DNA of 64,000 nucleotides from an uncultured Clostridia bacterium (GCA_944350085.1 CALVNY010000003.1:1-64000), one strand, 5' to 3'. Numbered from the stretch's first letter, positions 28,142 through 63,083 are shown. A program made the numbers and translations. Notes: generated from the sequence alone by a model not told the origin.

Positions 28142-29752
28142 TTATACAACTTTTTTTGATTTTTTAATAAATTTTGGAAAAACCTCTCTTTCTTCTTTGC
28201 TGAAACTTTTAAGCAAAAATATCAATATAAAATAGAATAAAACACCAACAATTGCACTTAAAACAAAATAAATGTAAATGTTTGTATCAAGCAACAATTC
28301 TCTTAAAATAACTGATATTGTGCTTGCAATTGTAATTGCAAAAATAGGTGCTAAAAACATTTGATAAACTCCAAACTTTAAATAAATGTATTTTCTAACA
28401 TTTAACAAACATATTATGCTTGCTATTGTTAAAAATACTATGTTTGAAATTGCAACTCCAAAAATATTTATTTTTGAATTTGAAACAAGCACAAAAACTA
28501 AAATAAATCTTACAATTAATGCAATACTTAAAGCAATCAATGGCAAAACAGGTTTGTTAATTGCTTGCAAAATTGCCGTAAATGTTTGCAAAAATCCGTA
28601 ATAAATTATTGTACAACTTGAAATTATAAGCAACTTATAAGCAAATTCAAACTCATTAATTACTATACTATCAAGCCCCCTACTATAAAGCAAATAAATT
28701 ATATCTTTTGAATATAGCATCAAAAAAATGACACATGGCAAGGAAATTAAAAATGCAACTTTTATGAACATTGAACATTTAAAACACACTTGTTCTTTGT
28801 CTTCATTTACAACCATACTGCTTAAATTAGGGACTATTGCAGTAGACAAAGATGCTGTTAAAATTACAGGGATATTAACAAGTGAAGTTACAATTCCATT
28901 ATTTAGACCATACAAACTTGTTGCTACTGCACTAGTAAATCCTCCTTTTATTAATAAATTTATTACCATAAAACTATCAAAAAAGGATGTTATTGGAATT
29001 ATAATTGCACTTAAAGTTGCAGGCATAGAATATTTAAAAATTAATTTAAAAGCACTAGAAAATGTGTAGGTTTGTTGCGGTTGATTGCTGTCAACATAAG
29101 CAAAACTATTTTTCTTTTTAAATACTAAATAATTAATAAAAAGCAAGAGCAAAGACACAAATTCACTAATTGTTACACCTAAAACTGCACCAAAAACAGA
29201 AAATTCTATTCCGTAATCTAAAAACAAAATTGAAAAATATAATCCAAAAACAACTTTTACAATTTGTTCAATAATAAATGAAAATGATGTTGGAAACATA
29301 TTTTCAAGACCTTGGAAAAAGGCTCTAACTATTGCAATTATGGAAGAAAAAATAAGTGCTGGAGCAATGGCTATGTATGCTAATTTTGCGTTTATGTTTC
29401 CTTGTAATACACTAATTTGCTGTGAAAATACAACCATTAAAAGTGCACCAATTAAACTTAAAATTAGAGAATAAAGTAGTGCAACTTTAAAAATTATAAT
29501 TTCATTTTTTCTGCATTTTTTTGCTCTTTCTTTTGCAATAATGGTTGAAACGGCAGTGCCAATTCCCGAACTGCATAGAACTAAAAGCAATGAGTAAAAT
29601 GGGAATACTAAGTAATATACCCCCATACCATTTGCACCTAAAATATTTGTTAATGGGATTTTGTAAATTGCACCAATTGCTTTTGCTAATATACCTGCAA
29701 TGGCAAGTATTGATGCACCAATAAAAATGTTTCTGCTGGCATTTTTTTTCAT
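28142..29752 (-). CDS. SpoVB/YabM-type MOP-superfamily flippase
   Basis: The 536-residue protein has about fourteen membrane helices and the N-terminal pattern of polysaccharide flippases (IGAIYKIPLTNILGANGMGVYYLVFPFYSLLLV). SpoVB and its paralogues move lipid-linked precursors during spore cortex or polysaccharide synthesis. Its start overlaps the spoVT stop by four bases (ATGA), and the same spoVT-flippase neighbourhood is known in Bacillus subtilis, where the flippase is YabM. The transported substrate cannot be read from sequence. Confidence 0.82.
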   Translation of the reverse strand: MKKNASRNIFIGASILAIAGILAKAIGAIYKIPLTNILGANGMGVYYLVFPFYSLLLVLCSSGIGTAVSTIIAKERAKKCRKNEIIIFKVALLYSLILSLIGALLMVVFSQQISVLQGNINAKLAYIAIAPALIFSSIIAIVRAFFQGLENMFPTSFSFIIEQIVKVVFGLYFSILFLDYGIEFSVFGAVLGVTISEFVSLLLLFINYLVFKKKNSFAYVDSNQPQQTYTFSSAFKLIFKYSMPATLSAIIIPITSFFDSFMVINLLIKGGFTSAVATSLYGLNNGIVTSLVNIPVILTASLSTAIVPNLSSMVVNEDKEQVCFKCSMFIKVAFLISLPCVIFLMLYSKDIIYLLYSRGLDSIVINEFEFAYKLLIISSCTIIYYGFLQTFTAILQAINKPVLPLIALSIALIVRFILVFVLVSNSKINIFGVAISNIVFLTIASIICLLNVRKYIYLKFGVYQMFLAPIFAITIASTISVILRELLLDTNIYIYFVLSAIVGVLFYFILIFLLKSFSKEEREVFPKFIKKSKKVV

Positions 29753-30276
29753 ACTTCACCCAAAAAATTTGAAAATACTTGACAACATTTTAAGTCGTTT
29801 GTTGTGATTTCTTTTTCGTTTAATGAATACAAAATAATTCCACCAACAACATCACCTTCGCAAATTATTGGTATAATTGCTTGCGAAGTGTAAATGCTTG
29901 TGTCATTTGAATATATGGACATCATCATTGAAACTGATTTTTGCAATATGTAATTTTTTCTATTAAAAAAGTTTTTTATTATATTTTCATTTAATAGTTT
30001 GTTATTAAGTGTTTTTTTGTTGCTTGCCACAATCTTTTCAGTGTCACATATTAAAACATTAAATTCTAAAACTCTACTTAAACTTTCACATATTATATTT
30101 GCAAATTCGTAAATACTGCTTATTTTCGAATACTTGCTTAAAACTATTTCACCACTTTTTAAAATATTAATTTCAAGAGTTGAGCCTTCGTGCAATCTAT
30201 ATGTTTTTCTAATTTCTTTTGGAATTACAATTCTACCTAACTCATCTACTCTCCTTATAATACCACCTGTTTCCAT
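29749..30276 (-). CDS. spoVT: stage V sporulation protein T, AbrB-type regulator
   Basis: The 175-residue protein has an N-terminal AbrB swapped-hairpin DNA-binding domain (GGIIRRVDELGRIVIPKEIRKT, residues 4-25, then LHEGSTLEI) and a C-terminal GAF-like domain, which is the SpoVT layout and length. SpoVT adjusts sigma-G-dependent gene expression in the forespore. Its presence argues that this organism or its recent ancestors form spores. A strong AAGGAGA site precedes the ATG, and it is translationally coupled to the flippase. Confidence 0.9.
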   Translation of the reverse strand: METGGIIRRVDELGRIVIPKEIRKTYRLHEGSTLEINILKSGEIVLSKYSKISSIYEFANIICESLSRVLEFNVLICDTEKIVASNKKTLNNKLLNENIIKNFFNRKNYILQKSVSMMMSIYSNDTSIYTSQAIIPIICEGDVVGGIILYSLNEKEITTNDLKCCQVFSNFLGEV

Positions 30277-30751: not shown

Positions 30752-31651
30752 TTATTTTTTATTGTTTTTAGTGTTTTCTTTTTTTTCTTCTACAACTTTT
30801 TCAACTTTATTTTCTTCAAGTGTTACATCTTTAGTTTCTTCAGTTGTTTTTGTGGTTGTTTGTTCTTTTTCACAATTAGAGCAAGTTCCATTTGAACAAT
30901 TTTTTGAATTTGCTTTTGCTTTGCGTTTTTCTATAACTTTTTGATTGTTTTCTCTAATATAATTATCTGCATATTCTTTTGATGGTAAACAATTTAAATA
31001 AAATTCCATTTGTGTTGCTTGATACAAAACATTAACCAAAGTTAAAAGAATAATTCCAACTATAACAACTAAAATTCCTAAAAATATGCTTAATGCAAAG
31101 TTTGATGCATATAAAGTGCTAATTGGCACAAATAATAATCCACAAGCAGCAATTATTAAAGCCATTAAAAAATATAACAAAATTTTGTATGACAAAACCA
31201 AAGTTTTGTTTCCAATCATACGAGTTGAATTTTCATTAAATGCACCTAATATACTTGTTTCCTTTTGGTCGGACAAAATATGCATATTAACGCAATAATA
31301 AATCACAAAAACAATGCTTGGGAATATTAATAAAATAAATCCTATAACCATACAAATTATATTAATAATGCCCATTAAAGTTGCTGCACCAAATTTGCTG
31401 TAATTTGAAAAAATCACTTTTAAATTTGGATTTTCACCTTTAAATAATTTTTTGTAGTATTCAATTAAACCATAAAATAAGTAACCACTAAAAAACAAAG
31501 CCAAAACAATACCAATGTAATATGGAATAAATGAAATGGCAACAAGTGGAGCAATTACAACTAGAGTTGCTAAAAATGCTTTTCCAAAGTTTCCTTTTAA
31601 TTTTTTGCAAGCAGTGTTCATTAAAGTAAAACAATTAACATTTGTATTCAT
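30752..31651 (-). CDS. DUF975-like multi-pass membrane protein with cysteine tail
   Basis: The 299-residue protein has about five or six membrane helices in its first 215 residues, in the pattern of DUF975 proteins (paired helices with an amphipathic link, a VIYYCVNMHIL segment, and LYQATQMEFY after the last helix). The C-terminal 80 residues are cytoplasmic, with a compact cysteine group CSNGTCSNCE near residue 253, followed by a Lys/Glu/Thr low-complexity end. The cysteines could bind a metal; that is inference. The function of the family is unknown. The ATG has an AGGAGAG site. Confidence 0.65.
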   Translation of the reverse strand: MNTNVNCFTLMNTACKKLKGNFGKAFLATLVVIAPLVAISFIPYYIGIVLALFFSGYLFYGLIEYYKKLFKGENPNLKVIFSNYSKFGAATLMGIINIICMVIGFILLIFPSIVFVIYYCVNMHILSDQKETSILGAFNENSTRMIGNKTLVLSYKILLYFLMALIIAACGLLFVPISTLYASNFALSIFLGILVVIVGIILLTLVNVLYQATQMEFYLNCLPSKEYADNYIRENNQKVIEKRKAKANSKNCSNGTCSNCEKEQTTTKTTEETKDVTLEENKVEKVVEEKKENTKNNKK

Positions 31652-31775: not shown

Positions 31776-31801
31776 AAGAAAAGGCTTTTAAGCCTTTTCT
31801 T
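31776..31801 (-). terminator. terminator of the giant surface-protein gene
   Basis: A twelve-base self-complementary stem (31776-31787 with 31790-31801) overlaps the stop codon at 31800 and is followed on the minus strand by a T run. Confidence 0.75.
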
Positions 31802-34800
31802 ATTTTGTTAATGTACAAGAAATTTCTGAACTTGTGTAAATTATGTCCTCACCATTTTTTACAGTTAATTTTAAAATTGCATTAACATAATTTGGATACT
31901 GACCATCAACATCTCCATAAGTTAATGTAATAACTCCGTTTGATATTGTTGCAGTAACAACCAATCCACTAAATTGGTCAGGTCCACAAGCGTAAGATAT
32001 TACTTCAACTTGGATTGTTAAATTTGTATATTCTTTACTTTCGTCACTAGCATTTACAACCTTAATCGGAGCATCTGTATTGATTTGAGTAGAGCCAGAA
32101 TCGCTTGTTATATTTATTTCTTTAGAATTAAATAAATTTAACAATTTAGTGTTTTGTTCTAATTTTAATACTGAATTAGAATTAAATACACATTCTACAC
32201 CATTAATTTCATTAGTATATGAAACATTGAATATTATTTCTTTTGTTTCCAACAAATATAAACTATTTTCAATAACAACTTTGTCGGACTCAATAGTTAC
32301 ATATTCATTGTCCTCAACATTTGCTAATTCAATTACAATTTCACCACTAGAATCAGCAGTAATCAATGAATTTGAAGCATTGTTTATTTGAACGCTCTGT
32401 TCACTTGTTAACTCTGGGTCTAAGGTTAATGAAACATTATTAGCAACAAAATTAATTTTTGGTGTAACCGTTACATTGTAAGTGTTTGAAACTATATTAT
32501 CATTAAATGTTGCCTGTACATCAATAATAAGTTCTTGACTATATGAAAATTTTGAATAATCAATTTTTAAAATATATTTATTAGATTGTTCATCTTTTTC
32601 AATAACTGCAAAGTTTGTTGTGTTTTGCAATCTAAATGTGTAATCTGTTGCTTGAATTTGTCCATTTTCTGTGCCATATTTTGAAGAAAGTTCTACAATA
32701 CCAATTGTGTCATTATCTTGTGTTGGCTCTTCAACATTAAATGTTTCTTTACCATTATATAGAATTTCCCAACTTGTTTCAACTGGCAACACATAGAAAG
32801 TGATGTTTGTTTGTAAATTATTATTTGAATTTACAATAAATGTAAATGGAGTTCTATGTAATCCTATGTTTGTGCTATAGAATGGTATTAATGTTATATT
32901 ATTTCCATTTTGAACATATTTATCGTTTTCTCCAGTACTTGAAATACTAAATGTTAATCCATTTTTAACAAGTTCAACACTTTCAACATTTATAACATAA
33001 TTTGTGCTAGTTATTAAAACTTTGTTGGTTTCCATATTTACATTGTAACTACCATTGTATTCAACACCACCAGTTAATTGTGATTGAAGAATATAAGTTG
33101 TTCCTTCTCCATCAGGTATGCTAATAATATAATATTTGCCCAAGTTAGTATCAACATATTTATTTGAATCTTCAGTTTTAATATCTAAAGAAGTTGATTC
33201 AGTTATTTCAACATATTCCGATGAAATTACATAATTGCCTGAATATTCTTCACCACTTGCATTAACCAACTTGTTAGTTCCTGTTGAAGTTGATTGAATA
33301 TAATATTTTGAAGCCCCAATCATTATATAGTTGTTTTGAACAATATAGTTTACCAATTCAGTTAAATCAATTGTTCCTTCATTGCTATTATAAATGTTTA
33401 AAACTTTTGTATTGTCTGACAAAGTTAAATCTATTAATGAATCAAATGAAGCAACTACACTGCCTGCAATTTTAACATCTTCACCATCAACTTCTCCAAC
33501 TTGTACCTTTTTATAATCATATACAATATTGTTAATTACATAATATTCGTTATTATTATATGTAAAGGTTTTAACTGCATCAATTGGCGATAGTATTGCG
33601 TTATTATTAAATGAAACAAACGCACTTACAATTTCCGATACTCCACCAATAGTGAACTTAATTTCAAATTTTGAAACTACTGAACTATGAATATTAAACA
33701 CAACAGTTTGACCAGACAATGTTGCATAGTTGTTTGCAACTGAAATAGTGAACAATTTTGATAAATCTTCTTTGTCTATTAAAACTTTTGTGCTGTCACC
33801 ACTATCAAATGTTGCATTTTGAACTAATGTAACATTTAGTAGTGTGTACAAATTAACAACATTATCGTTATTATTTCTAACAATCACTGAATATGGATTA
33901 TCAGAATTGTAACTAGATGTAACAGAACTTATTACACTTAGTAGTTCAATAACAATTTCTCCATTAGTTCCTGGTGTGTAGTAATATTCATGAGCATATT
34001 TACCATCAATCAAATTATCGGCAAATACTCCACAATACTTAATGTTACCCTCATCTGCAATATATCTTAAATTTAGATAATATGGAATTCTAACTTCAGT
34101 TGTTTCGCTTACAGCCTTAAATTTTATACCACTAGATGTTATTGTGTAATAGTCTGTTTCACATTCTTCAAATAGCAAATATGCTATTGTTTTTTCACCA
34201 GCACTATTTAGAACATCAATAGACATACTATTTGTAGTTAAAGGTTCAGAATCTGATGCTTTGTAACTTTGTTCTAATATTGTTCCTTCCATTGTGTTGA
34301 AAGCTTTAAATTCAACTGAACTTCCACCATAAATAGAAAGTTTTTGTTTAGAATTTGTTGAATCACCAACACTTGTTTGATAATTTATTGTTACACCATT
34401 ATTTGCACTAATGTTTGGTTGAAATGCTATGTTGTAAATCCTACTATATGATGCACCATTTTGCCATGTAATTAAAATTTTTACTTTAACCATGGTATTT
34501 ACCTTGTTAGTTGGCAAATATACCAATGCACCTGTGTTTGGATTTAGCGCATTAACAATATTGCTTTCATCTTCTTCAATGCTAAATAATATTGTTGTAC
34601 CACTTCTAAAATCAATATTGTTTCCATAATAATCAGTTATATAAATTGGATAACTTGAACTATTTTTTTGGTCATCCCATAGATATAATGTTTCTCTATT
34701 GTTTGTTATTCCATCATTAACTTTAATTGGAGCACTAATTTGTGTTCTATATATTGTTGGAGCAGATGATGTTTCATAATCAAATACAATTTTTACATTT

Positions 34801-37800
34801 GGTTTAAATGTTATTTTAAGAACTTCTTGATATGAACAACCATCTAATTCAACATCAATTAAAACATAAACTACTTTGTCAATTTCAATGTTATTATGTT
34901 TTATTTTTCCATTACTTAAAGTTACATCATTGTATGTAAATGGATCTCCCTTTTCATCAACTAATGTGTATGTTATACCACTTGTTATTGGAGTTTCAGC
35001 ACTGTCCCCATAAATTATAGTAAATGGTGATAACTCTGTATTTGCTATATCAATTTCAACTCCTGCTGGAATATAAGTTTGATTTGGGCTAATTATTACA
35101 TTAGGTTTAACTGTTAAAGTTAATTTTGTAATAGTATCCCCATAAACACTTGTGATTGTGTACAAATAGAATACTACAGTTTTGCTTACTCCAACATCAT
35201 TAAATTTTAGAGTTGAATCATAACCTATTAATTCGTATGGATTAATTGTAGTATATAAGCCATCTGTGTTTTTAGATTTTAATGTTAGTCCATTAAAGTC
35301 TTGAACCAAAATTCTTAGTGCATTAAAATTACTTGTTAATGCTGATGGCAATTTACAACTATTAATAAATTCTCTAAGACTAAATTCATTGTTTGCATAA
35401 ACTTCTACATTTCCATCAACAGAAACAACATATCTTTCTAAATTATTTCTTACAGCAAATGTGTAATATGCAGTTGCACCATTAAAAGTTTCAATTTTTA
35501 CTACTGTGTTTATTGTGTTGTAATCTTGAATATTAAATGTGATTTCACTTCCTTGTAATACTCCAGAATCAACATTTGCTTGTCCACTGTAAACTGAATA
35601 TGTGAACATTGAGTCGGCATTATTAATTACAAAATCTATTGTTGAATCAGTAAATGCTGTTAATTGATCTTCTTCTACCAATCCACTTTCAATTAGTTTT
35701 TGTTTGTCTACTGATAATGTTATAGTTTTATCAATAGAATTTGTATCTTTTAGGTTTGCATTTAAAACAACACCATTGTAACTTAATTCAACTCTTCTGT
35801 TCTTACTTATAAAGTTTTTTTCTAAATCTATAGTTGTATTATTATTTGCATTTTCATAAGAATCTAAAACAGGATAAGTTGTAGTAATTGTTATATCTGG
35901 CATTAATTTAAAGTAGAATTCATACATTTCGTTTGAAATTGAAATAAATACAATTTTGTAATACTCAACTTCGTTAACACTATTTTTATAATTTAATTTT
36001 ACTAAATTATATAAATTTACGTCATTTCCACTTGTTACATAGTTTGTTATTAATTCAACAGAATCACCAGTGTAAACACTATAAACTTGATTTGTTTTCT
36101 TTTGTAATACAACATTTTTTATTATGCTATAAAATACATCAGTGTTATTTCCACCAATTAGTGAAACCAAGTTGTCAACTGCTTCACTACCATAAACATT
36201 CGTTATTGAATCATTATAAGACACTTCAACATATTTGTTGCTACCACTCGTATTTGGAGTTATAGTGTATTGTTTTTGAACTTCGTAAGCATTTTCTTCT
36301 GTGTTGTAATCTGTTTCATATTTAACAGTTTTGTTAACTTTTAAATAAATTAAATTTTCAGAAGTGTTTGTTAGTTCAACTGTTTTTGTTCCATATTCAA
36401 CAAAGTAAACTTTAATTCGAATTGTTTCATCAGTTGTTAGTGCTTCACTTGTTTTTATTTCACCATTTGTAAAGAATAAGTTATTTTGTACTAATTCGTT
36501 GTACTTTTCTTCGCCAAAGATGTTTCTTAATTTACTTTCAGGTTCGGTATCAGCAATTTGAATTCTTAAAATTGTGCTTAAATCATCAATTTCAGAACTA
36601 TAATTTGAAGTAACTTTAAATAATTTTACACCAACATTATCAGGCTCATTTTCATCATATTGGCCATCAGTAAATAAATTGTATGTTAAGCCTGCTTTTA
36701 TATTAAATGTGTTTGTATTAAATTGAATATTATTATAGTATGGCAAAACTCTAATAGTAATTGTGTTGTATGTGTAAGTTTCTGTTGTGCCTTGAACAGA
36801 TATATTATATTTAATTGTAACACCAACATTTTCATATGTTTTTGTTGGTGAAACCCTACTTGGAATAAACACATTAGATGAACCAATTGAACCATAACTA
36901 TTATTTGATGTAACTTCATAAATCAAAGTTAAGTTTGCACCATTTTTCTTTAATTTATAATAATCATCTAAACTCTTGTTTGTTTCATTAAATGTGTAAA
37001 TAGTATTATTTGCACCAAGTGTTGTTTCAATATAGTTTTTACCTTCTGGTAAGTCAGTGGTTATTTCCAAATTTGCTTTTACGGTTATGTAATAAACATA
37101 ATCTGCACTAGCACTATTAAATGTTGAAATTCTAATTGCTGCATCAATATCTGTTAAACTATCTTTTGCATAAACAATTAACGAATATTCCCCACCTGTT
37201 GCCTTTAAACCACTTACTTGATAAGTTGGTTTTCCATCTACCAAGAAGTATATTGCATTTTTATCTGAATTTTGACTATCAGCAGAATGATAAGTTTCAA
37301 TTGTAAAAATTAAAGAATCTCTAATGTCTACATTGTCTATTGTTGCAGAAATTGGTGTTCTTGTTTGTATTACACCATCAATTGTGTCTCTTGCACTATG
37401 TTCTGCCAAAATATCAAACGAACTACCACCTTTTATTTTTTGTGAAGTTTGAGTGCTATCATTTATTTGCCACAAATCTACGCCACTTTCATTGTTTATA
37501 GAATATCCTGTAACAACAACTTCAGATTGAACGATATTTAAAACAAATCTAAATGTAAACTTTGTTCCATTGTATTTTACATCATTTGAACCAACTGCAT
37601 CTTCATACAAATAAATTGTACAAGTTATAACTACATTTATTCCTTCAGGTGAACCTTTTAAAATAGTTAAAATTGGATCGTAACCGTTTGCTCCTGCTTT
37701 TTCAGTTACAGAAACATAACTTGGTTCGCTACTTACCCACTCGTAAATTGCATTGTTTTTAATATCTTCACTTATTGTTTCTTCATTACCTACATAAGCA

Positions 37801-40790
37801 GTATCCAAATTTAAGTTTAAATTGTAATCTAGGCTTTTATTTCCATCACTGCCACCAAATTTAAATTCACCTTTACTTTCGCCACCTTCGTAGTATTGCC
37901 ATACCAATTTACCATTGTTTAATGAACCCTTAATTGATAAGGTTTGATCATTTGAGATTGCTTGGTTTGATGAACCACCAGCAGAATAATATGCCTTAAC
38001 TGTGTTTTCTTGAATTGTTGCAAAAGAAATTTGAATATTTGCTCTACAACCTTCAAGGAAAGAAAATTCATCATCATTTACTGCAAGGAAAATATCTGCA
38101 CTTGTAGTTGCATCAAAACATTCAATAGTTATCTTTATCATTCCATTAACCATTGAAAGTGTTTCGTGAATTTGTACTGCCGATTCATTTGATGTTGAAA
38201 AGAACGCATTTTTATTTTGTCCATTTAAGTTATTAAACCAAAAATCAAACAATGCAGTATTTAAGTTAGTCCTTTCATTGTCGCTTCCATTAAATGTGCC
38301 TGTATTGTCTAAATTTAAGTTTGTAACAAACATTTCAAAGCGTTGGCCAACAACCATTTTTACAGGAGTTTTAATTACTCCATCAACGGTTGTCCTATTT
38401 TGGAAATTACTTGTGCCTTCTTCCTCTGCTGTGTAAAATTGTAAATCTTGTAAAAATGAGTAAATGTTAAACTTTATTGTTTCACTTGCAACTTTTATTA
38501 TGTCGTAAACATTTCTATATTGCCAATTACCTGTTCCTTCTTCATCATATTTTTCATCAACTAAGTTGCCATCAGCATCAATAGGTTCGCCCAACACATT
38601 TGTTCTAACTACTGCAACATAAAGTTCAATATCATTTAATGTGTAAACACTTGTTGGGTTTGTTGGATTTGCTTCATCCATTGTGTACACAACGCTTGTG
38701 TTTAATGCTTCAATACATATTCTACCAGAAGAATCGTTTGTATAATTTATTTCGTAAACATTTATTGTGTTTCCACCATAAGGCAATGTGTAAACCATTG
38801 GGTCACCATCAAGTGTTCCATCAACAGTTTTAACTCTAACTTTTAAATATCCATTTTTTGCTGTTGCTTCGCTAACAAACAATTTGATATTTGTGTAACT
38901 AGCATCCATTGTAAATTCTTTAATTAACGAACCACTTGTGCCAATTTTGTCTAAACTTAAATCAACATACTGAACATTAGGATAACCATTGTTGTTGGTT
39001 GAATTAATGCTCATATCAGTAATTAAGTTTTGATTTAGACTAAACACATTTATTTGATTAATTTTAATGTTAACATTTGCAATTTGCTTAAAGTATGTTC
39101 CACTAATTTCGTCATATAATACAAACAATATACCTGTTCCGTCGTCTTCACGTTCTTGTTCTTTATTTGCTGTTATTTTCCAAACCTTAGTTGAATCTTG
39201 CGAACTTGGATTTTTAACTTCCAACACAGTATTATTTGATTTGTATGTTAAATATTTTGTAACCCCCTCAACCAAAATTGGTGAATAAACAATTTTGTCA
39301 ACTAATTGCCCGTTTTCATATTCCTTAATGGTTAATAAATCTTCACCCTGAATTGCTTCAACGCTATCAAATATGTCGCCTTGTTTAATGCTATATAATT
39401 GAAGGTCATTTAGCCTTACATTTAATGCACTATCTGAAATATTACTACTTGTGCTTGTTAATTTGATATTAAATAATTTTGTTAAATTTTCTCTTGTTAG
39501 TTCTTGTCCATTATATTTTAAAGATTCAAACAAGTTTAAATTTATAACTGTATTTCCAACTCTAAAATCTGTTAATTCTACATTTTCAACAACAATATCT
39601 TGTGATGCTGTTATAAACATTAAATCCATCAAAGCATAATAATCTGCTTCACGGTTAATAACTAACCTTCCATCTTGTGTTGATTTTTCTTTGTACCAAT
39701 TATAACCAGTAGTTGAAACTGTGTTAGTTTCGTTATCAACAACAATTTCGCCACATTGTTTTATATAGTCTAAATACTTGTTTGCAAAGTTGGTTACAGC
39801 CATAAAACCTTGACTTACATCTGTTTTAAAAATTGTGTCTGCTTCCAAATAATCTAAATACATTTGATATGTTGGTAAAGTTTTTGATGTGATTGTACTA
39901 GTTCCAGCCTGTAATGTTTTGAAAGTATATCTTATGCTTCTAAGTAAATCATCATCACCATCTCTTCTTTCTAAATTTTCTGTTTTTGTTATTTTAATAA
40001 CTTCTTCATTACTACTTTCAGTTATTACATTTTTAAATGAAAATTTATCAGTATAAATTTCTCCCGTGCTTGGATTAATTGCATAAGTTGGCATTGTTGT
40101 TAAAGTAAAAGTTAAATCATTTTCATTAAAAACTATTGTGTTATTTTCTAGTTCACCAGGAACTTCTGAAAAATCTAAGCCAATATCAGTAATACTACTA
40201 TCTACAAAAAATTCAAACTGGCTCCAAGTTGTTCCCCCCTCGCTGTCAACTGCTTTTATTCTAACTTCGCCACCAACATTAAATTCCTTAATTTTATAGT
40301 AATTGTCACCAATTTTAATTACGCCTATTTCATCAAAGATTTCATACTCTAAGTTTGTAACTAATGCATAATTATTGTCGTATAATTTGTTTTCAATTAT
40401 GTAATAAGTTAAAGAACCAAATGTTACTTGTTTTGTTTTTACAATTTCAACTGTAAATTCTTCACCAGCAACAACAGTTTTTGGAACAACAACTGCTTCT
40501 TGCCCCTTTAACACAGTTAAAGTTAAATTTTTAGTAGTTGCATTTTCAGGTGAAAAATTGATTTTCATATTAAAATTATCATTTGCAACCAAAACATCAT
40601 TAATTTTTGAGATTGCAGTATTGTTTTCATCTAAATTATTTAACAAACTATCGCTATCAAAATTAATAGTTTCAAGATAAATGCTTTCATCTTTGAAAGC
40701 ACCCGTAGCAAACAAGACACCTATAGTGCCTGCTATTAAAATTATAATTCCTAAAAATGCCCAGCCAATATATTTAAAAACTTTTCCCAT
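31800..40790 (-). CDS. 2996-residue membrane-anchored modular surface protein
   Basis: One uninterrupted 8991-base gene. The N-terminus is a signal anchor (about residues 9-31) with lysines before it and no lipobox, and there is no LPXTG or S-layer motif at the end, so about 2960 residues should project outside. The rest is beta-rich, Thr/Asn/Ser-rich, acidic and very poor in cysteine. Segment ends recur with a strand of the type hydrophobic-x-Pro-Asn/Asp/Lys-hydrophobic: LPYYNN (near 1350), MPDI (1630), KPNV (1897, 1995), QPNI (2122) and TPKI (2778). This suggests tandem Ig-like or cadherin-like modules about 100-270 residues long. No catalytic motif is seen. An adhesin or cell-wall-spanning fibre is my inference. 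It has a strong promoter and its own terminator. Confidence 0.8.
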   Translation of the reverse strand: MGKVFKYIGWAFLGIIILIAGTIGVLFATGAFKDESIYLETINFDSDSLLNNLDENNTAISKINDVLVANDNFNMKINFSPENATTKNLTLTVLKGQEAVVVPKTVVAGEEFTVEIVKTKQVTFGSLTYYIIENKLYDNNYALVTNLEYEIFDEIGVIKIGDNYYKIKEFNVGGEVRIKAVDSEGGTTWSQFEFFVDSSITDIGLDFSEVPGELENNTIVFNENDLTFTLTTMPTYAINPSTGEIYTDKFSFKNVITESSNEEVIKITKTENLERRDGDDDLLRSIRYTFKTLQAGTSTITSKTLPTYQMYLDYLEADTIFKTDVSQGFMAVTNFANKYLDYIKQCGEIVVDNETNTVSTTGYNWYKEKSTQDGRLVINREADYYALMDLMFITASQDIVVENVELTDFRVGNTVINLNLFESLKYNGQELTRENLTKLFNIKLTSTSSNISDSALNVRLNDLQLYSIKQGDIFDSVEAIQGEDLLTIKEYENGQLVDKIVYSPILVEGVTKYLTYKSNNTVLEVKNPSSQDSTKVWKITANKEQEREDDGTGILFVLYDEISGTYFKQIANVNIKINQINVFSLNQNLITDMSINSTNNNGYPNVQYVDLSLDKIGTSGSLIKEFTMDASYTNIKLFVSEATAKNGYLKVRVKTVDGTLDGDPMVYTLPYGGNTINVYEINYTNDSSGRICIEALNTSVVYTMDEANPTNPTSVYTLNDIELYVAVVRTNVLGEPIDADGNLVDEKYDEEGTGNWQYRNVYDIIKVASETIKFNIYSFLQDLQFYTAEEEGTSNFQNRTTVDGVIKTPVKMVVGQRFEMFVTNLNLDNTGTFNGSDNERTNLNTALFDFWFNNLNGQNKNAFFSTSNESAVQIHETLSMVNGMIKITIECFDATTSADIFLAVNDDEFSFLEGCRANIQISFATIQENTVKAYYSAGGSSNQAISNDQTLSIKGSLNNGKLVWQYYEGGESKGEFKFGGSDGNKSLDYNLNLNLDTAYVGNEETISEDIKNNAIYEWVSSEPSYVSVTEKAGANGYDPILTILKGSPEGINVVITCTIYLYEDAVGSNDVKYNGTKFTFRFVLNIVQSEVVVTGYSINNESGVDLWQINDSTQTSQKIKGGSSFDILAEHSARDTIDGVIQTRTPISATIDNVDIRDSLIFTIETYHSADSQNSDKNAIYFLVDGKPTYQVSGLKATGGEYSLIVYAKDSLTDIDAAIRISTFNSASADYVYYITVKANLEITTDLPEGKNYIETTLGANNTIYTFNETNKSLDDYYKLKKNGANLTLIYEVTSNNSYGSIGSSNVFIPSRVSPTKTYENVGVTIKYNISVQGTTETYTYNTITIRVLPYYNNIQFNTNTFNIKAGLTYNLFTDGQYDENEPDNVGVKLFKVTSNYSSEIDDLSTILRIQIADTEPESKLRNIFGEEKYNELVQNNLFFTNGEIKTSEALTTDETIRIKVYFVEYGTKTVELTNTSENLIYLKVNKTVKYETDYNTEENAYEVQKQYTITPNTSGSNKYVEVSYNDSITNVYGSEAVDNLVSLIGGNNTDVFYSIIKNVVLQKKTNQVYSVYTGDSVELITNYVTSGNDVNLYNLVKLNYKNSVNEVEYYKIVFISISNEMYEFYFKLMPDITITTTYPVLDSYENANNNTTIDLEKNFISKNRRVELSYNGVVLNANLKDTNSIDKTITLSVDKQKLIESGLVEEDQLTAFTDSTIDFVINNADSMFTYSVYSGQANVDSGVLQGSEITFNIQDYNTINTVVKIETFNGATAYYTFAVRNNLERYVVSVDGNVEVYANNEFSLREFINSCKLPSALTSNFNALRILVQDFNGLTLKSKNTDGLYTTINPYELIGYDSTLKFNDVGVSKTVVFYLYTITSVYGDTITKLTLTVKPNVIISPNQTYIPAGVEIDIANTELSPFTIIYGDSAETPITSGITYTLVDEKGDPFTYNDVTLSNGKIKHNNIEIDKVVYVLIDVELDGCSYQEVLKITFKPNVKIVFDYETSSAPTIYRTQISAPIKVNDGITNNRETLYLWDDQKNSSSYPIYITDYYGNNIDFRSGTTILFSIEEDESNIVNALNPNTGALVYLPTNKVNTMVKVKILITWQNGASYSRIYNIAFQPNISANNGVTINYQTSVGDSTNSKQKLSIYGGSSVEFKAFNTMEGTILEQSYKASDSEPLTTNSMSIDVLNSAGEKTIAYLLFEECETDYYTITSSGIKFKAVSETTEVRIPYYLNLRYIADEGNIKYCGVFADNLIDGKYAHEYYYTPGTNGEIVIELLSVISSVTSSYNSDNPYSVIVRNNNDNVVNLYTLLNVTLVQNATFDSGDSTKVLIDKEDLSKLFTISVANNYATLSGQTVVFNIHSSVVSKFEIKFTIGGVSEIVSAFVSFNNNAILSPIDAVKTFTYNNNEYYVINNIVYDYKKVQVGEVDGEDVKIAGSVVASFDSLIDLTLSDNTKVLNIYNSNEGTIDLTELVNYIVQNNYIMIGASKYYIQSTSTGTNKLVNASGEEYSGNYVISSEYVEITESTSLDIKTEDSNKYVDTNLGKYYIISIPDGEGTTYILQSQLTGGVEYNGSYNVNMETNKVLITSTNYVINVESVELVKNGLTFSISSTGENDKYVQNGNNITLIPFYSTNIGLHRTPFTFIVNSNNNLQTNITFYVLPVETSWEILYNGKETFNVEEPTQDNDTIGIVELSSKYGTENGQIQATDYTFRLQNTTNFAVIEKDEQSNKYILKIDYSKFSYSQELIIDVQATFNDNIVSNTYNVTVTPKINFVANNVSLTLDPELTSEQSVQINNASNSLITADSSGEIVIELANVEDNEYVTIESDKVVIENSLYLLETKEIIFNVSYTNEINGVECVFNSNSVLKLEQNTKLLNLFNSKEINITSDSGSTQINTDAPIKVVNASDESKEYTNLTIQVEVISYACGPDQFSGLVVTATISNGVITLTYGDVDGQYPNYVNAILKLTVKNGEDIIYTSSEISCTLTK

Positions 40791-40905: not shown

Positions 40906-40933
40906 ATTATATAAATATATAAATATTTGTCAA
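40906..40933 (-). promoter_or_regulatory. strong promoter of the giant surface-protein gene
   Basis: A consensus TTGACA (40928-40933), a 16-base spacer and a consensus TATAAT (40906-40911) give a leader of about 110 bases. The leader has no obvious structure, and an AAGAGGT site lies before the ATG. Confidence 0.7.
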
Positions 40934-41036: not shown

Positions 41037-41540
41037 TTAAACCAATTCAATTAAAGCCATTTCTGCATTATCGCCATTTCTAGTTCCAAGTTTAACAATA
41101 CGAGTGTATCCACCACCTGTTCCTAGTTCTTCTTTGCGTTTTGCATATTTTGGTGCATAAATATTAAATATTTTTTCAATTAATGGGTAATTAATTTCTT
41201 CTGTTCTTTTAACATATGCTTCTTTCTTTTCTTTTGGAAGACGCTTTTCTTGAACAACATTAAGTTTTGCCATTAATTTTCTTCTTGCATTAAGTTTCTT
41301 TGTTCCATCGTTAACAACTTCTCTTTTTTGTTTAACACCCTTAGCATCAACAACTGTTTTTGTAACTTTAACGGTATCTTCATAAGAATTTATTGCAAGA
41401 GTTAATAATTTTTCAGCATAAGAAGCAACTTCTTTTGCCTTTTCAACTGTGGTTTCAATTTTACCATTCCAAAGTAAATCAGTTGCAAGGTTTTTTAGCA
41501 TTGCGTTTCTATGTGCAGTTGGTCTACCTAACTTTCTCAT
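41037..41540 (-). CDS. rplQ: 50S ribosomal protein L17, long form
   Basis: L17 sits near the exit tunnel of the large subunit. The start (RKLGRPTAHRNAMLKNLATDLL) and end (GGGYTRIVKLGTRNGDNAEMALIELV) are canonical. At 167 residues it is about 45 longer than the Bacillus protein: the extra part falls after residue 50 and includes a charged segment (VVDAKGVKQKREVVND) inside the helical middle. It is the last gene of the superoperon, 18 bases after rpoA. Confidence 0.96.
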   Translation of the reverse strand: MRKLGRPTAHRNAMLKNLATDLLWNGKIETTVEKAKEVASYAEKLLTLAINSYEDTVKVTKTVVDAKGVKQKREVVNDGTKKLNARRKLMAKLNVVQEKRLPKEKKEAYVKRTEEINYPLIEKIFNIYAPKYAKRKEELGTGGGYTRIVKLGTRNGDNAEMALIELV

Positions 41541-41558
41541 TTTATTATTTTCTCCTTA

Positions 41559-42512
41559 TTATTCTTCATCGTTTCTTAAACTTAGGCCATAACTTTGAAG
41601 CTTTTCTTGAACTTCTTCAAGTGAGCGTTTACCTAAATTTTTAACTTTTGCTAAGTCACTTTCAGATTTTTTAGTTAAATCTTCAACAGTTGAAATGCCT
41701 GCTCTCTTTAAACAGTTATAACTACGAACTGATAAATCCATATCTTCAATGGTCATTTCTAAAACTTTTGTTTGTTTGTCTTCTTCACGGCTAACTAAAA
41801 TTTCCATTTCTGCCATATTTTCAACAAGTTCAACAAATAGTCCAATGTGGTCTTGAATTAACTTTCCTGATAAACTTATAACTTCCCTAGCAGTTAAAGT
41901 GCCATTAGTTTCTACTTCAATAGTTAATTTATCATAATCAATGCTTTGTCCAACACGAGTGTTATTAACAAAGTAATTTACTTTTTTAACAGGTGTAAAA
42001 ATAGAATCTACTGCTATATAACCAATAGGTGCATCATCTCTTTTATTTGATTCAGCAGGAACATATCCTCTTCCACGACCAATAAAAACTTCCATTTCAA
42101 AACTTGCACCTTCGTCCATTGTACAAATGTGTAAGTCTGGGTTTAATATTTCAACTTGGTCGTTAGGTTCAAAATCACGAGCTGTAACTTCACCAGCACC
42201 ATACTTATTAATTCTAAGAATGGAAGTGAAATCTTTACTTGTATCCATTGTTTTAACTGCTAAATTTTTGATGTTTAAAACAATATCTACAACATCTTCC
42301 ATAACGCCTTTAATAGTACTAAATTCGTGTTGAACACCATTTATTTTAATACCTATTGCAGCAGCACCAGGAAGAGCAGATAGTAAAACACGCCTTAAAC
42401 AGTTACCAATAGTAATACCAAAACCTCTGTCAAGTGGCTCAACAATAAATCTTGCAAAACAACCGTTGTCAGTTTCTTCACAAGTGATTTTTGGTTTTTC
42501 GATTTCCATCAT
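41559..42512 (-). CDS. rpoA: RNA polymerase alpha subunit
   Basis: The 317-residue protein has the alpha N-terminal dimerisation domain (IVEPLDRGFGITIGNCLRRVLLSALPGAA) and the C-terminal domain that contacts UP elements and activators (ELTK-like VEDLTKKSESDLAKVKNLGKRSLEEVQEKL). Length and domain order are normal. ATG 42512 follows AGAGAGGT at eight bases. It lies 84 bases after rpsD, the longest gap within the alpha block apart from the one before rpsM. Confidence 0.97.
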   Translation of the reverse strand: MMEIEKPKITCEETDNGCFARFIVEPLDRGFGITIGNCLRRVLLSALPGAAAIGIKINGVQHEFSTIKGVMEDVVDIVLNIKNLAVKTMDTSKDFTSILRINKYGAGEVTARDFEPNDQVEILNPDLHICTMDEGASFEMEVFIGRGRGYVPAESNKRDDAPIGYIAVDSIFTPVKKVNYFVNNTRVGQSIDYDKLTIEVETNGTLTAREVISLSGKLIQDHIGLFVELVENMAEMEILVSREEDKQTKVLEMTIEDMDLSVRSYNCLKRAGISTVEDLTKKSESDLAKVKNLGKRSLEEVQEKLQSYGLSLRNDEE

Positions 42513-60965: not shown

Positions 60966-63083
60966 TTATTTTTTAATTTTTGGCATTGTAAAAGTTGGAA
61001 CTTTTGATGAACTAGACCTTGTTGAAGTTTTTGATGTTGTTGCTTTTTTTGTTGCAGCCTTTTTTGTTTGTGCATTTAATTTTGCCATCCTTTCCTTTAA
61101 AGCATTGGCACTATTATTTTTAGGTTTAACTTCATCTATTTGACTGCTTAGTTCTTGTTCTCTTTCTCTTAATTTTTCGTTTTCGGCTTCAATATCTTTT
61201 GTTAATTCTTTTAATTCATCAATTTTTTCTTCTTTTGCTTCTTCTTTTGATTCTTCTTTTACATTTTCTTCTGGCAATTTTACAACTTTTACTTCTGGAA
61301 CTTCATTTTCTTCTGGTAGCTTTACAACTTTCACATTGCCATTTTCATTGGCATTATTATCATTTGAAGTTTCATCTTTAGCTTTTGCATCTGCATCGTT
61401 GTTTTCAACTTTATCTTCCAATTTAACAACAGTAACATTTGCCTCTTTTTCTTGTTCTTCTTCACTTAAATTTTCGTCTTGCAATCTTTCTTCAACAGGC
61501 AATTTCATTTCTTTTTTTACATACTTAAATGCTTCTCTGTCTTGATTTTTTAATTGTTTTAATTCCTTTTTAGACATTGTAAGTCTTTGTCTAAATTCCT
61601 CACTTGTCATATATTCTCTTAAATTTTTAACTGCTTCAAGTTCAGATAGTCTAACATTAAGTTCTTGCTTTGTTTCTTCAATTGCCTTTTCTTTTTCAGC
61701 AATAACATTGTCTTTTTCTTGTATTGTTGCATTTAATTTATTTATTTGCTCATTTAAATCATCAATTTTGGCTTGTGTTTCATCAATAATTGGTTGATTT
61801 TGTTTTAAAACTGTTTCTGTTACTTGTCCGTAAATTTTGTTAACATAAGTTTTACCTTCAGCCAACATATTTTCAGTTGCTTGCTCTTTTCTACGCTTAA
61901 TTTCATCATTAAACTTGTCTATTTCATATTGAATATCTTGTTGCTCTTTTTGAAATCTTGATGATGCCAAATCGTAATCTTTTTCATATTGTTGATAACG
62001 AGCTTGTTCTTCATTTAATTTTTTCTTTAAATAGTTTGCTTCAATCTTTACTGTGGTTTGGTTAATTTGGTCGCTAACACTATTTATTATTTCCCTACTT
62101 GCTTGCGCTTTCCTTTCAAAATCTTTTGTTACTTCATCAAAGTTCTTTTGATAGTTTATTTTTTCTTGTTCTTTTGCTCTTATTCTTTCAGAAAAGTTTC
62201 TTTTAACATTTAAATATTTTTCACTTTCCTTCATAGCACGCTCTAAAAGCAAACTACTATCAACACCCAATTCTTCAAAGTCGTAATTTTCGCCAACTAA
62301 GTTGGTCATTGCTTCTTCTTCTTTGCGTTTCTTTTCAGCAGCCTCAGATTTTTCCAAATACTCTTGAAGTGCGGGGATATTTTCTTTTATTTCTTTTTTA
62401 GTAAATAGAACTTCATAATCAATAACTTCTGGCATTGTTTTGCAAGCCCTATCTAAGTTCTTTTCAAATTGTTGAAAGTTGTAATATAAGTCTGCCATAA
62501 TTGCAGTGTGCCTTGCACTTAAAAATGAAATAAACAACATTCCTAATACAAACAATAATACAGGAACAATTAAAACTTGGAAAAATACTGCATAAGCACT
62601 TCTTCCTGTGATTGAATAGAAATTACCAAGACCAAATATAAAGGTTAATCCACAAATGATTGAAATAAAAATTTTGCAAATTCTAATGCTTGTTTGATAA
62701 CTACTAATTCTGGTTGGAATATCAATACAATTATCACAATTTATATATTTGCTTGGCTTGTCACGATTTAACATATATTCTTGCCAGTTGTGTCTTACAA
62801 CTTTTGGAACTTGTTTCATTTTGTCGTTAAATTCAATTAAGTTGTTTTCATCAATATTTTGTTTTTTTGCTAAATACTTATTTAACTTTTTTGTTTTGCT
62901 TAACAACTTTGCTTCATAAGTAAAACTTGTTCTAATCCAAGTTATAAGCAAAGTTAAAACCAACAACCCAACACTTCCATAAAGCAAGTACTCTAATGTC
63001 ATAAAGTTAGAAAATTTTTCGATATAACTAACCAATGCATTAAAGACTTTTGTTACAGATTCGGATAGTAAAATACTCGTCAT
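60966..63083 (-). CDS. three-helix membrane protein with long coiled-coil tail
   Basis: The 705-residue protein has membrane helices at about 33-51, 134-154 and 165-188. The loop between the first two is polar and contains a CDNC pair (116/119). From about 200 to 530 it is nearly continuous coiled coil. An acidic region follows with a repeated VKVVKLPEEN motif (two copies and one variant), and then a Lys/Ala/Thr/Ser-rich tail. One helix, a loop, two helices and a long cytoplasmic helix is the plan of MotA/TolQ/ExbB-type proteins such as ZorA, but I see no convincing channel motif and no MotB-like partner nearby. The family is uncertain. It has its own promoter. Confidence 0.7.
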   Translation of the reverse strand: MTSILLSESVTKVFNALVSYIEKFSNFMTLEYLLYGSVGLLVLTLLITWIRTSFTYEAKLLSKTKKLNKYLAKKQNIDENNLIEFNDKMKQVPKVVRHNWQEYMLNRDKPSKYINCDNCIDIPTRISSYQTSIRICKIFISIICGLTFIFGLGNFYSITGRSAYAVFFQVLIVPVLLFVLGMLFISFLSARHTAIMADLYYNFQQFEKNLDRACKTMPEVIDYEVLFTKKEIKENIPALQEYLEKSEAAEKKRKEEEAMTNLVGENYDFEELGVDSSLLLERAMKESEKYLNVKRNFSERIRAKEQEKINYQKNFDEVTKDFERKAQASREIINSVSDQINQTTVKIEANYLKKKLNEEQARYQQYEKDYDLASSRFQKEQQDIQYEIDKFNDEIKRRKEQATENMLAEGKTYVNKIYGQVTETVLKQNQPIIDETQAKIDDLNEQINKLNATIQEKDNVIAEKEKAIEETKQELNVRLSELEAVKNLREYMTSEEFRQRLTMSKKELKQLKNQDREAFKYVKKEMKLPVEERLQDENLSEEEQEKEANVTVVKLEDKVENNDADAKAKDETSNDNNANENGNVKVVKLPEENEVPEVKVVKLPEENVKEESKEEAKEEKIDELKELTKDIEAENEKLREREQELSSQIDEVKPKNNSANALKERMAKLNAQTKKAATKKATTSKTSTRSSSSKVPTFTMPKIKK

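Follow-up and report, generated by a model that had tools for sequence, protein, structure and literature searches.

Among described proteins, two systems are close to the one analysed here. Gli349, the leg protein of Mycoplasma mobile, consists of 3,183 aa, extends over ~100 nm and combines an N-terminal transmembrane segment with repeats of ~100 aa (PMC4937208, PMC7052211). Giant1-5 of Apilactobacillus kunkeei, encoded in a 1.5 Mb genome, are extracellular proteins of 3,000-8,000 aa that are found in supernatants (PMC12863079).

The DNA considered here (the window) is a stretch of 64,000 nucleotides from an uncultured Clostridia bacterium, whose assembly comprises 1.14 Mb in 29 contigs, and it carries the gene of a giant protein (Table 1). 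Its low GC content, together with the spoVT and spoVB-like genes, suggests a reduced member of the Bacillota. In agreement with the preliminary description, this 9 kb gene is uninterrupted and preceded by a consensus promoter; a Shine-Dalgarno-like motif (AGAGG) lies 5' of its ATG. Because the gene has a promoter-like site and a terminator-like stem-loop of its own, it is, judging from these motifs, probably monocistronic. The giant had no match in Pfam (even at an E value of 1), NCBIfam or PDB sequences, and searches of PDB sequences with the module profile and the N-terminal profile described below yielded nothing meaningful.

Table 1. Coordinates of the giant gene, its parts and its neighbours in the window
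Feature	Position	Strand	Basis
Giant ORF, 2,996 aa, ATG start	31800..40790	(-)	open frame, 2,996 codons
Sigma-70-type promoter, TTGACA-16-TATAAT, 12/12 matches	40906..40933	(-)	consensus match only
Terminator-like stem-loop with T run	31776..31801	(-)	
Putative N-terminal signal anchor, residues 1-33 (basic start MGKVFKYIG, helix ~10-31, then family motif GxF, here GAF)	40692..40790	(-)	hydrophobicity and homologue comparison
Residues 1-330, best-conserved part of the family (profile A3)	39801..40790	(-)	profile
Residues 222-313, aligned with the stretch around the Big_2 match of the G032 homologue (L014, aa 164-214)	39852..40127	(-)	alignment
Tandem module, residues 1785-1897	35100..35438	(-)	profile comparison
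Tandem module, residues 1891-1998	34797..35120	(-)	profile comparison; low-confidence Ig-like fold
Tandem module, residues 1991-2126	34413..34820	(-)	profile comparison
Related module, residues 2771-2903, outside the profile seed	32082..32480	(-)	E 3e-10 after iteration
rplQ (L17) and rpoA, conserved upstream flank of the locus	41037..42512	(-)	
Multi-TM membrane protein, 299 aa, downstream of the giant, syntenic in the window's clade	30752..31651	(-)	
SpoVT-like regulator, conserved flank of the locus	29749..30276	(-)	

The hydrophobic helix at residues ~10-31 (maximum Kyte-Doolittle mean 2.45) is the sole segment of the giant to exceed a mean of 1.6, which is consistent with the earlier proposal that this helix tethers the chain to the membrane. 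An N-terminal hydrophobic helix was present in all 28 homologues inspected, and the GxF motif follows it in nearly all of them, L170 being an exception. The residue preceding the F of this motif is variable (A, E, Q, G, S, Y or V), a variability that speaks against cleavage by signal peptidase at this point; the junction itself is conserved, has no A-x-A site, and adjoins a long hydrophobic core. We infer from these sequence features that the helix remains uncleaved and that the topology is type II. As previously described, the giant displays no sortase, lipobox or S-layer signal: its end, inspected for sequence and hydrophobicity, is devoid of an LPXTG motif with hydrophobic stretch and basic tail, its N-terminus has no lipobox Cys (the first Cys being residue 346), and Pfam revealed no SLH domains (PF00395). 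Its C-terminus showed no recognisable adhesin tip or ligand-binding domain of a known type, and Pfam scans of the giant and of the homologue sets revealed no wall-binding domain.

The view that the protein is modular, cysteine-poor and marked by recurring P-N/D/K strand ends was upheld as well. Cys amounts to 12 residues (0.4%). Profile self-comparison showed that residues 1793-2215 consist of tandem repeats, each ~105-128 residues long, and uncovered a longer-range repeat as well (1116-1260 versus 1511-1652); the C-terminal half contains recurring tandem modules of ~100-135 aa. The module profile detected 4 modules in the window giant, and between 4 and 6 in every one of six close homologues, with zero matches in reversed or shuffled giants, while its seed version recovered three modules in L175, a homologue outside the seed (E 8e-6 to 1e-10). 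Nine P-N/D/K sites, from residue 1235 on, coincide with the ends of the tandem modules that profile comparison had found independently. Read by eye, recurrent ends made of a hydrophobic residue followed by P-N define 13 borders between modules, the first at residue 1241, with modules of ~100-270 residues between them, and this spacing suggests a total of 20-25 modules in the window giant.

A link to a known family came from the homologues. Pfam Big_2 (PF02368) scored 34.9 bits in the G032 protein, a close homologue, against a cut-off of 22.8, and this match aligns with residues 222-313 of the window giant, where Big_2 itself stays below the Pfam gathering cut-off. The lipoprotein neighbouring the giant in G046 also matched Big_2, at 22.9 bits and thus just above the cut-off, and further Big_2 matches turned up in other proteins of the sets scanned. 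Neither the module consensus nor three tandem modules gave a significant Pfam family. A single-module fold model (eight module rows, window modules only) was all-beta with 8 strands at pLDDT 54, so that the beta-rich character noted earlier appears to hold, with low confidence. With few exceptions, the best structural matches of this model were sandwiches of Ig-like type, among them domains of the Sap S-layer protein, at Z ~5, a value that may mean merely a shared beta-sandwich arrangement; Foldseek returned no match under E 1e-3, and AlphaFold, run on a three-module stretch as single sequence, gave pLDDT 36. These comparisons suggest that at least some of the modules making up the giant are Big_2-like, and an Ig fold would apply to most of its modules.

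The remark that no family is known for this protein did not stand. Of the 309 genomes of the taxonomic family, 222 (149 of the 190 good ones), representing 27 of its 42 genera, gave a match to profile A3, which was built from the N-terminal 330 aa of nine members, and nearly always the match was one per genome; in the rest of the order the profile gave eight weak matches only (E 6e-4 to 5e-7). The preliminary description had raised similarly anchored large paralogues in the same genome, where A3 gave one match only and no such paralogue was found. A direct search of 99 relatives yielded homologues in one genus whose frames run to 3,040 and 3,078 codons. A peptide-pattern search of named genomes for close relatives returned nothing, and none of 80 SpoVT-based loci, among the matches listed, carried the family N-terminus. 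Homologues vary several-fold in size, from ~1,100 to ~5,700 residues (1,127-5,689 aa in the loci read, with open frames to 5,699 codons), leaving out frames cut by contig ends. Reading of 20 further loci showed 19 giants with the anchor, with GxF or a variant of it, and without a C-terminal anchor; the long frame inspected in L180 starts in a lipoprotein-like manner and has no signal anchor. Judged by libraries and a limited literature search, the family is undescribed, and as far as searched it is restricted to one taxonomic family. One homologue, that of G022 (L170:3064-10338), bears near its C-terminus a transglutaminase-like domain (aa 2188-2295; Pfam Transglut_core, E 3e-7), which from its sequence is a possible catalytic tip; one member of its set, presumably this giant, matched the NCBIfam entry "MAG6410 family transglutaminase-related lipoprotein" (E 7e-14).

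In several genomes, belonging to sister genera, the locus reads rpoA-rplQ-(Big_2 lipoprotein)-giant-(multi-TM protein)-spoVT-spoVB-like-dus, with losses and insertions. A search of the genome to which the window belongs did not find the upstream Big_2 lipoprotein; in sister genera, a lipoprotein-like gene of ~1,080-1,480 aa lies upstream of the giant (L024:1696-4947, L175:12744-15980 and L176:11009-15442). The block of spoVT and a spoVB/MurJ-like gene that stands beside the giant in this 1.14 Mb genome (window 28142-30276) is conserved across several genera. The 299-aa neighbour was considered as a PrsA-like foldase and rejected as such, being a multi-TM membrane protein instead; DUF975 was matched (E 1.4e-4) by one member of set A5, a set in which a homologue is included. 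The giant gene is located away from rpoA in many genera, and the genera without a profile match that were checked had no giant frame adjoining rpoA. Within the 20 further loci, a cardiolipin synthase gene lies directly 3' of the giant in nine, from several genera (L163, L164, L165, L166, L169, L171, L172, L177 and L178), two of these calls being made by Pfam PLDc_2 and the other seven by the start sequence. A divergently transcribed gene of 690-920 aa precedes the giant in four loci (L163:15998-18235, L166:15802-18555, L169:14741-16801 and L171:15260-17875). Elsewhere in the window (60966-63083), a 705-aa protein of no clear family showed a weak DUF2207_C match only.

Comparison of two genomes of one genus (G046 and G007) revealed an identity of 96% for RpoA, 77% for SpoVT, 71% for the multi-TM protein, 47% for the giant and 38% for the lipoprotein, which evolves faster still than the giant. 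Within the giant, the initial 150 aa have an identity of 0.69, which declines to 0.35-0.44 in the final 600, a gradient that relaxed constraint would yield as well, and the dN/dS ratio was ~0.39 with dS near saturation. The giant thus appears to change rapidly under constraint, and most of all at a distance from the membrane, a pattern that an exposed distal end would be expected to show. The codon adaptation of the giant (0.706) is above that of tpi (0.692), pgk (0.671) and transketolase, and within the range of the ribosomal-operon reference genes. Together with the wide conservation of the family, this value makes it plausible that the giant is the main surface structure of the organism, as had been suggested.

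With regard to the envelope, transpeptidase PBPs were present in 35 of the 35 genomes of the taxonomic family examined, and therefore a peptidoglycan wall is expected. A sortase was found in only 1 of these 35 genomes, compared with 11 of 24 from the order's other families, and not in the window's own genome; SLH domains were likewise not found in that genome and occurred in none of the 35. As sortase is nearly absent, SLH absent and PBPs present, an N-terminal membrane anchor appears a sensible route of display, and the length of the chain would let it pass the wall.

On balance we favour, as rather probable, the reading of the giant as a fibre that is anchored in the membrane, crosses the wall, is composed of Ig-like modules and has a fast-evolving distal end, adhesion being its likeliest activity. 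The first ~9 residues would be cytoplasmic in this type II arrangement (N-in, C-out) and the helix would span the membrane as an uncleaved Sec signal-anchor, followed by ~20-25 Ig-like beta-sandwich modules in tandem, mostly of ~100-140 residues. By analogy with Gli349, the chain may reach a length of the order of 80-110 nm; at that length it would cross the peptidoglycan and protrude, and would need neither a sortase nor a wall-binding domain. Its distal, fastest-changing end would then be the part in contact with the surroundings, be it a host surface, other cells or phage.

The strongest competitor, which we nevertheless hold to be unlikely, is an envelope tether and not an adhesin, in which the chain runs between membrane and wall and determines the spacing of the wall or scaffolds lipid and wall enzymes. 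The mostly single-copy, widespread occurrence within the taxonomic family would suit such a role, as would the cardiolipin synthase genes downstream in other genera, the SpoVB/MurJ-like flippase gene in the syntenic block of the window's clade and the retention of PBPs in all genomes examined. However, the giant diverges fast, and fastest at its membrane-distal end, the several-fold length differences would be odd for a fixed spacer, and the neighbouring genes differ between genera.

Less probable still is a secreted or loosely wall-bound protein, whose helix would be a cleaved signal peptide and whose chain would be released or non-covalently held; Giant1-5 of A. kunkeei provide a precedent (PMC12863079), whereas the length of the hydrophobic core, the conserved GxF junction devoid of an A-x-A site and the want of any recognised wall-binding domain speak against it. 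A motility leg, in which a flexible stalk anchored at its N-terminus would carry a binding foot and be driven from within the cell, recalls Gli349 in size class, N-terminal anchor and ~100-aa repeats (PMC4937208, PMC7052211), but no motor genes were seen adjoining the giant at the locus and Gli349 acts in wall-less cells while the present genomes keep PBPs, so that we regard it as very improbable. Finally, an assembly artefact or spurious frame, in favour of which no point was found, has practically no likelihood left and is already refuted, since full-length homologues (of 3,039, 3,077 and 3,220 aa) occupy this locus in independent assemblies.

Returning to the membrane-anchored fibre, a wider and more tentative proposal, to which we give somewhat less than even credence, is that this streamlined taxonomic family lost sortase display and replaced it by a single-copy giant threaded from the membrane through the wall, which would be its primary, perhaps only, large surface appendage and would diversify outward from a fixed anchor. 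Since some of the order's smallest genomes devote approximately 1% of their length to this single exported protein, its role is likely to be important. Should the anchor model prove correct, it would illustrate how very long proteins can be displayed on a walled cell that uses no sortase, S-layer or wall-binding domain for the purpose, and these uncultured bacteria would offer a defined, family-wide surface protein for studying their interactions with host and phage.

Overall, the giant shares features with several known systems. Like the LPXTG- and SLH-anchored giant adhesins of Gram-positives, it is a long, modular, exported stalk of a walled cell, yet it has neither LPXTG nor SLH, and sortase is almost absent from its taxonomic family. 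It resembles Big_2 (PF02368) surface proteins in module size and strand pattern, and Big_2 occurs in one homologue and in a relative's lipoprotein, whereas the window giant itself lies below detection and most of its modules match no Pfam family. With A. kunkeei Giant1-5 it has in common its size, its repeats and its notable share of a small genome; those proteins differ in possessing a signal peptide and a C-terminal SH3b-like wall attachment, in lacking a transmembrane segment and in being encoded by five genes in a row, and Giant1-4 carry N-terminal beta-solenoid domains. No C-terminal DUF5776/SH3b-like wall attachment was matched by Pfam in the window giant. Gli349, compared here by its published description, may be regarded as the nearest described design in function: it is a giant surface chain anchored by an N-terminal transmembrane segment only, with weak ~100-aa repeats, and it differs in its wall-less host, its Gli521 partner, its internal motor and its sialic-acid-binding foot. 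An N-terminal anchor on a chain of this length is unusual, as was first remarked, and in view of Gli349 not unprecedented; the giant belongs to a familiar kind of surface protein, of which it represents a variant not described so far.
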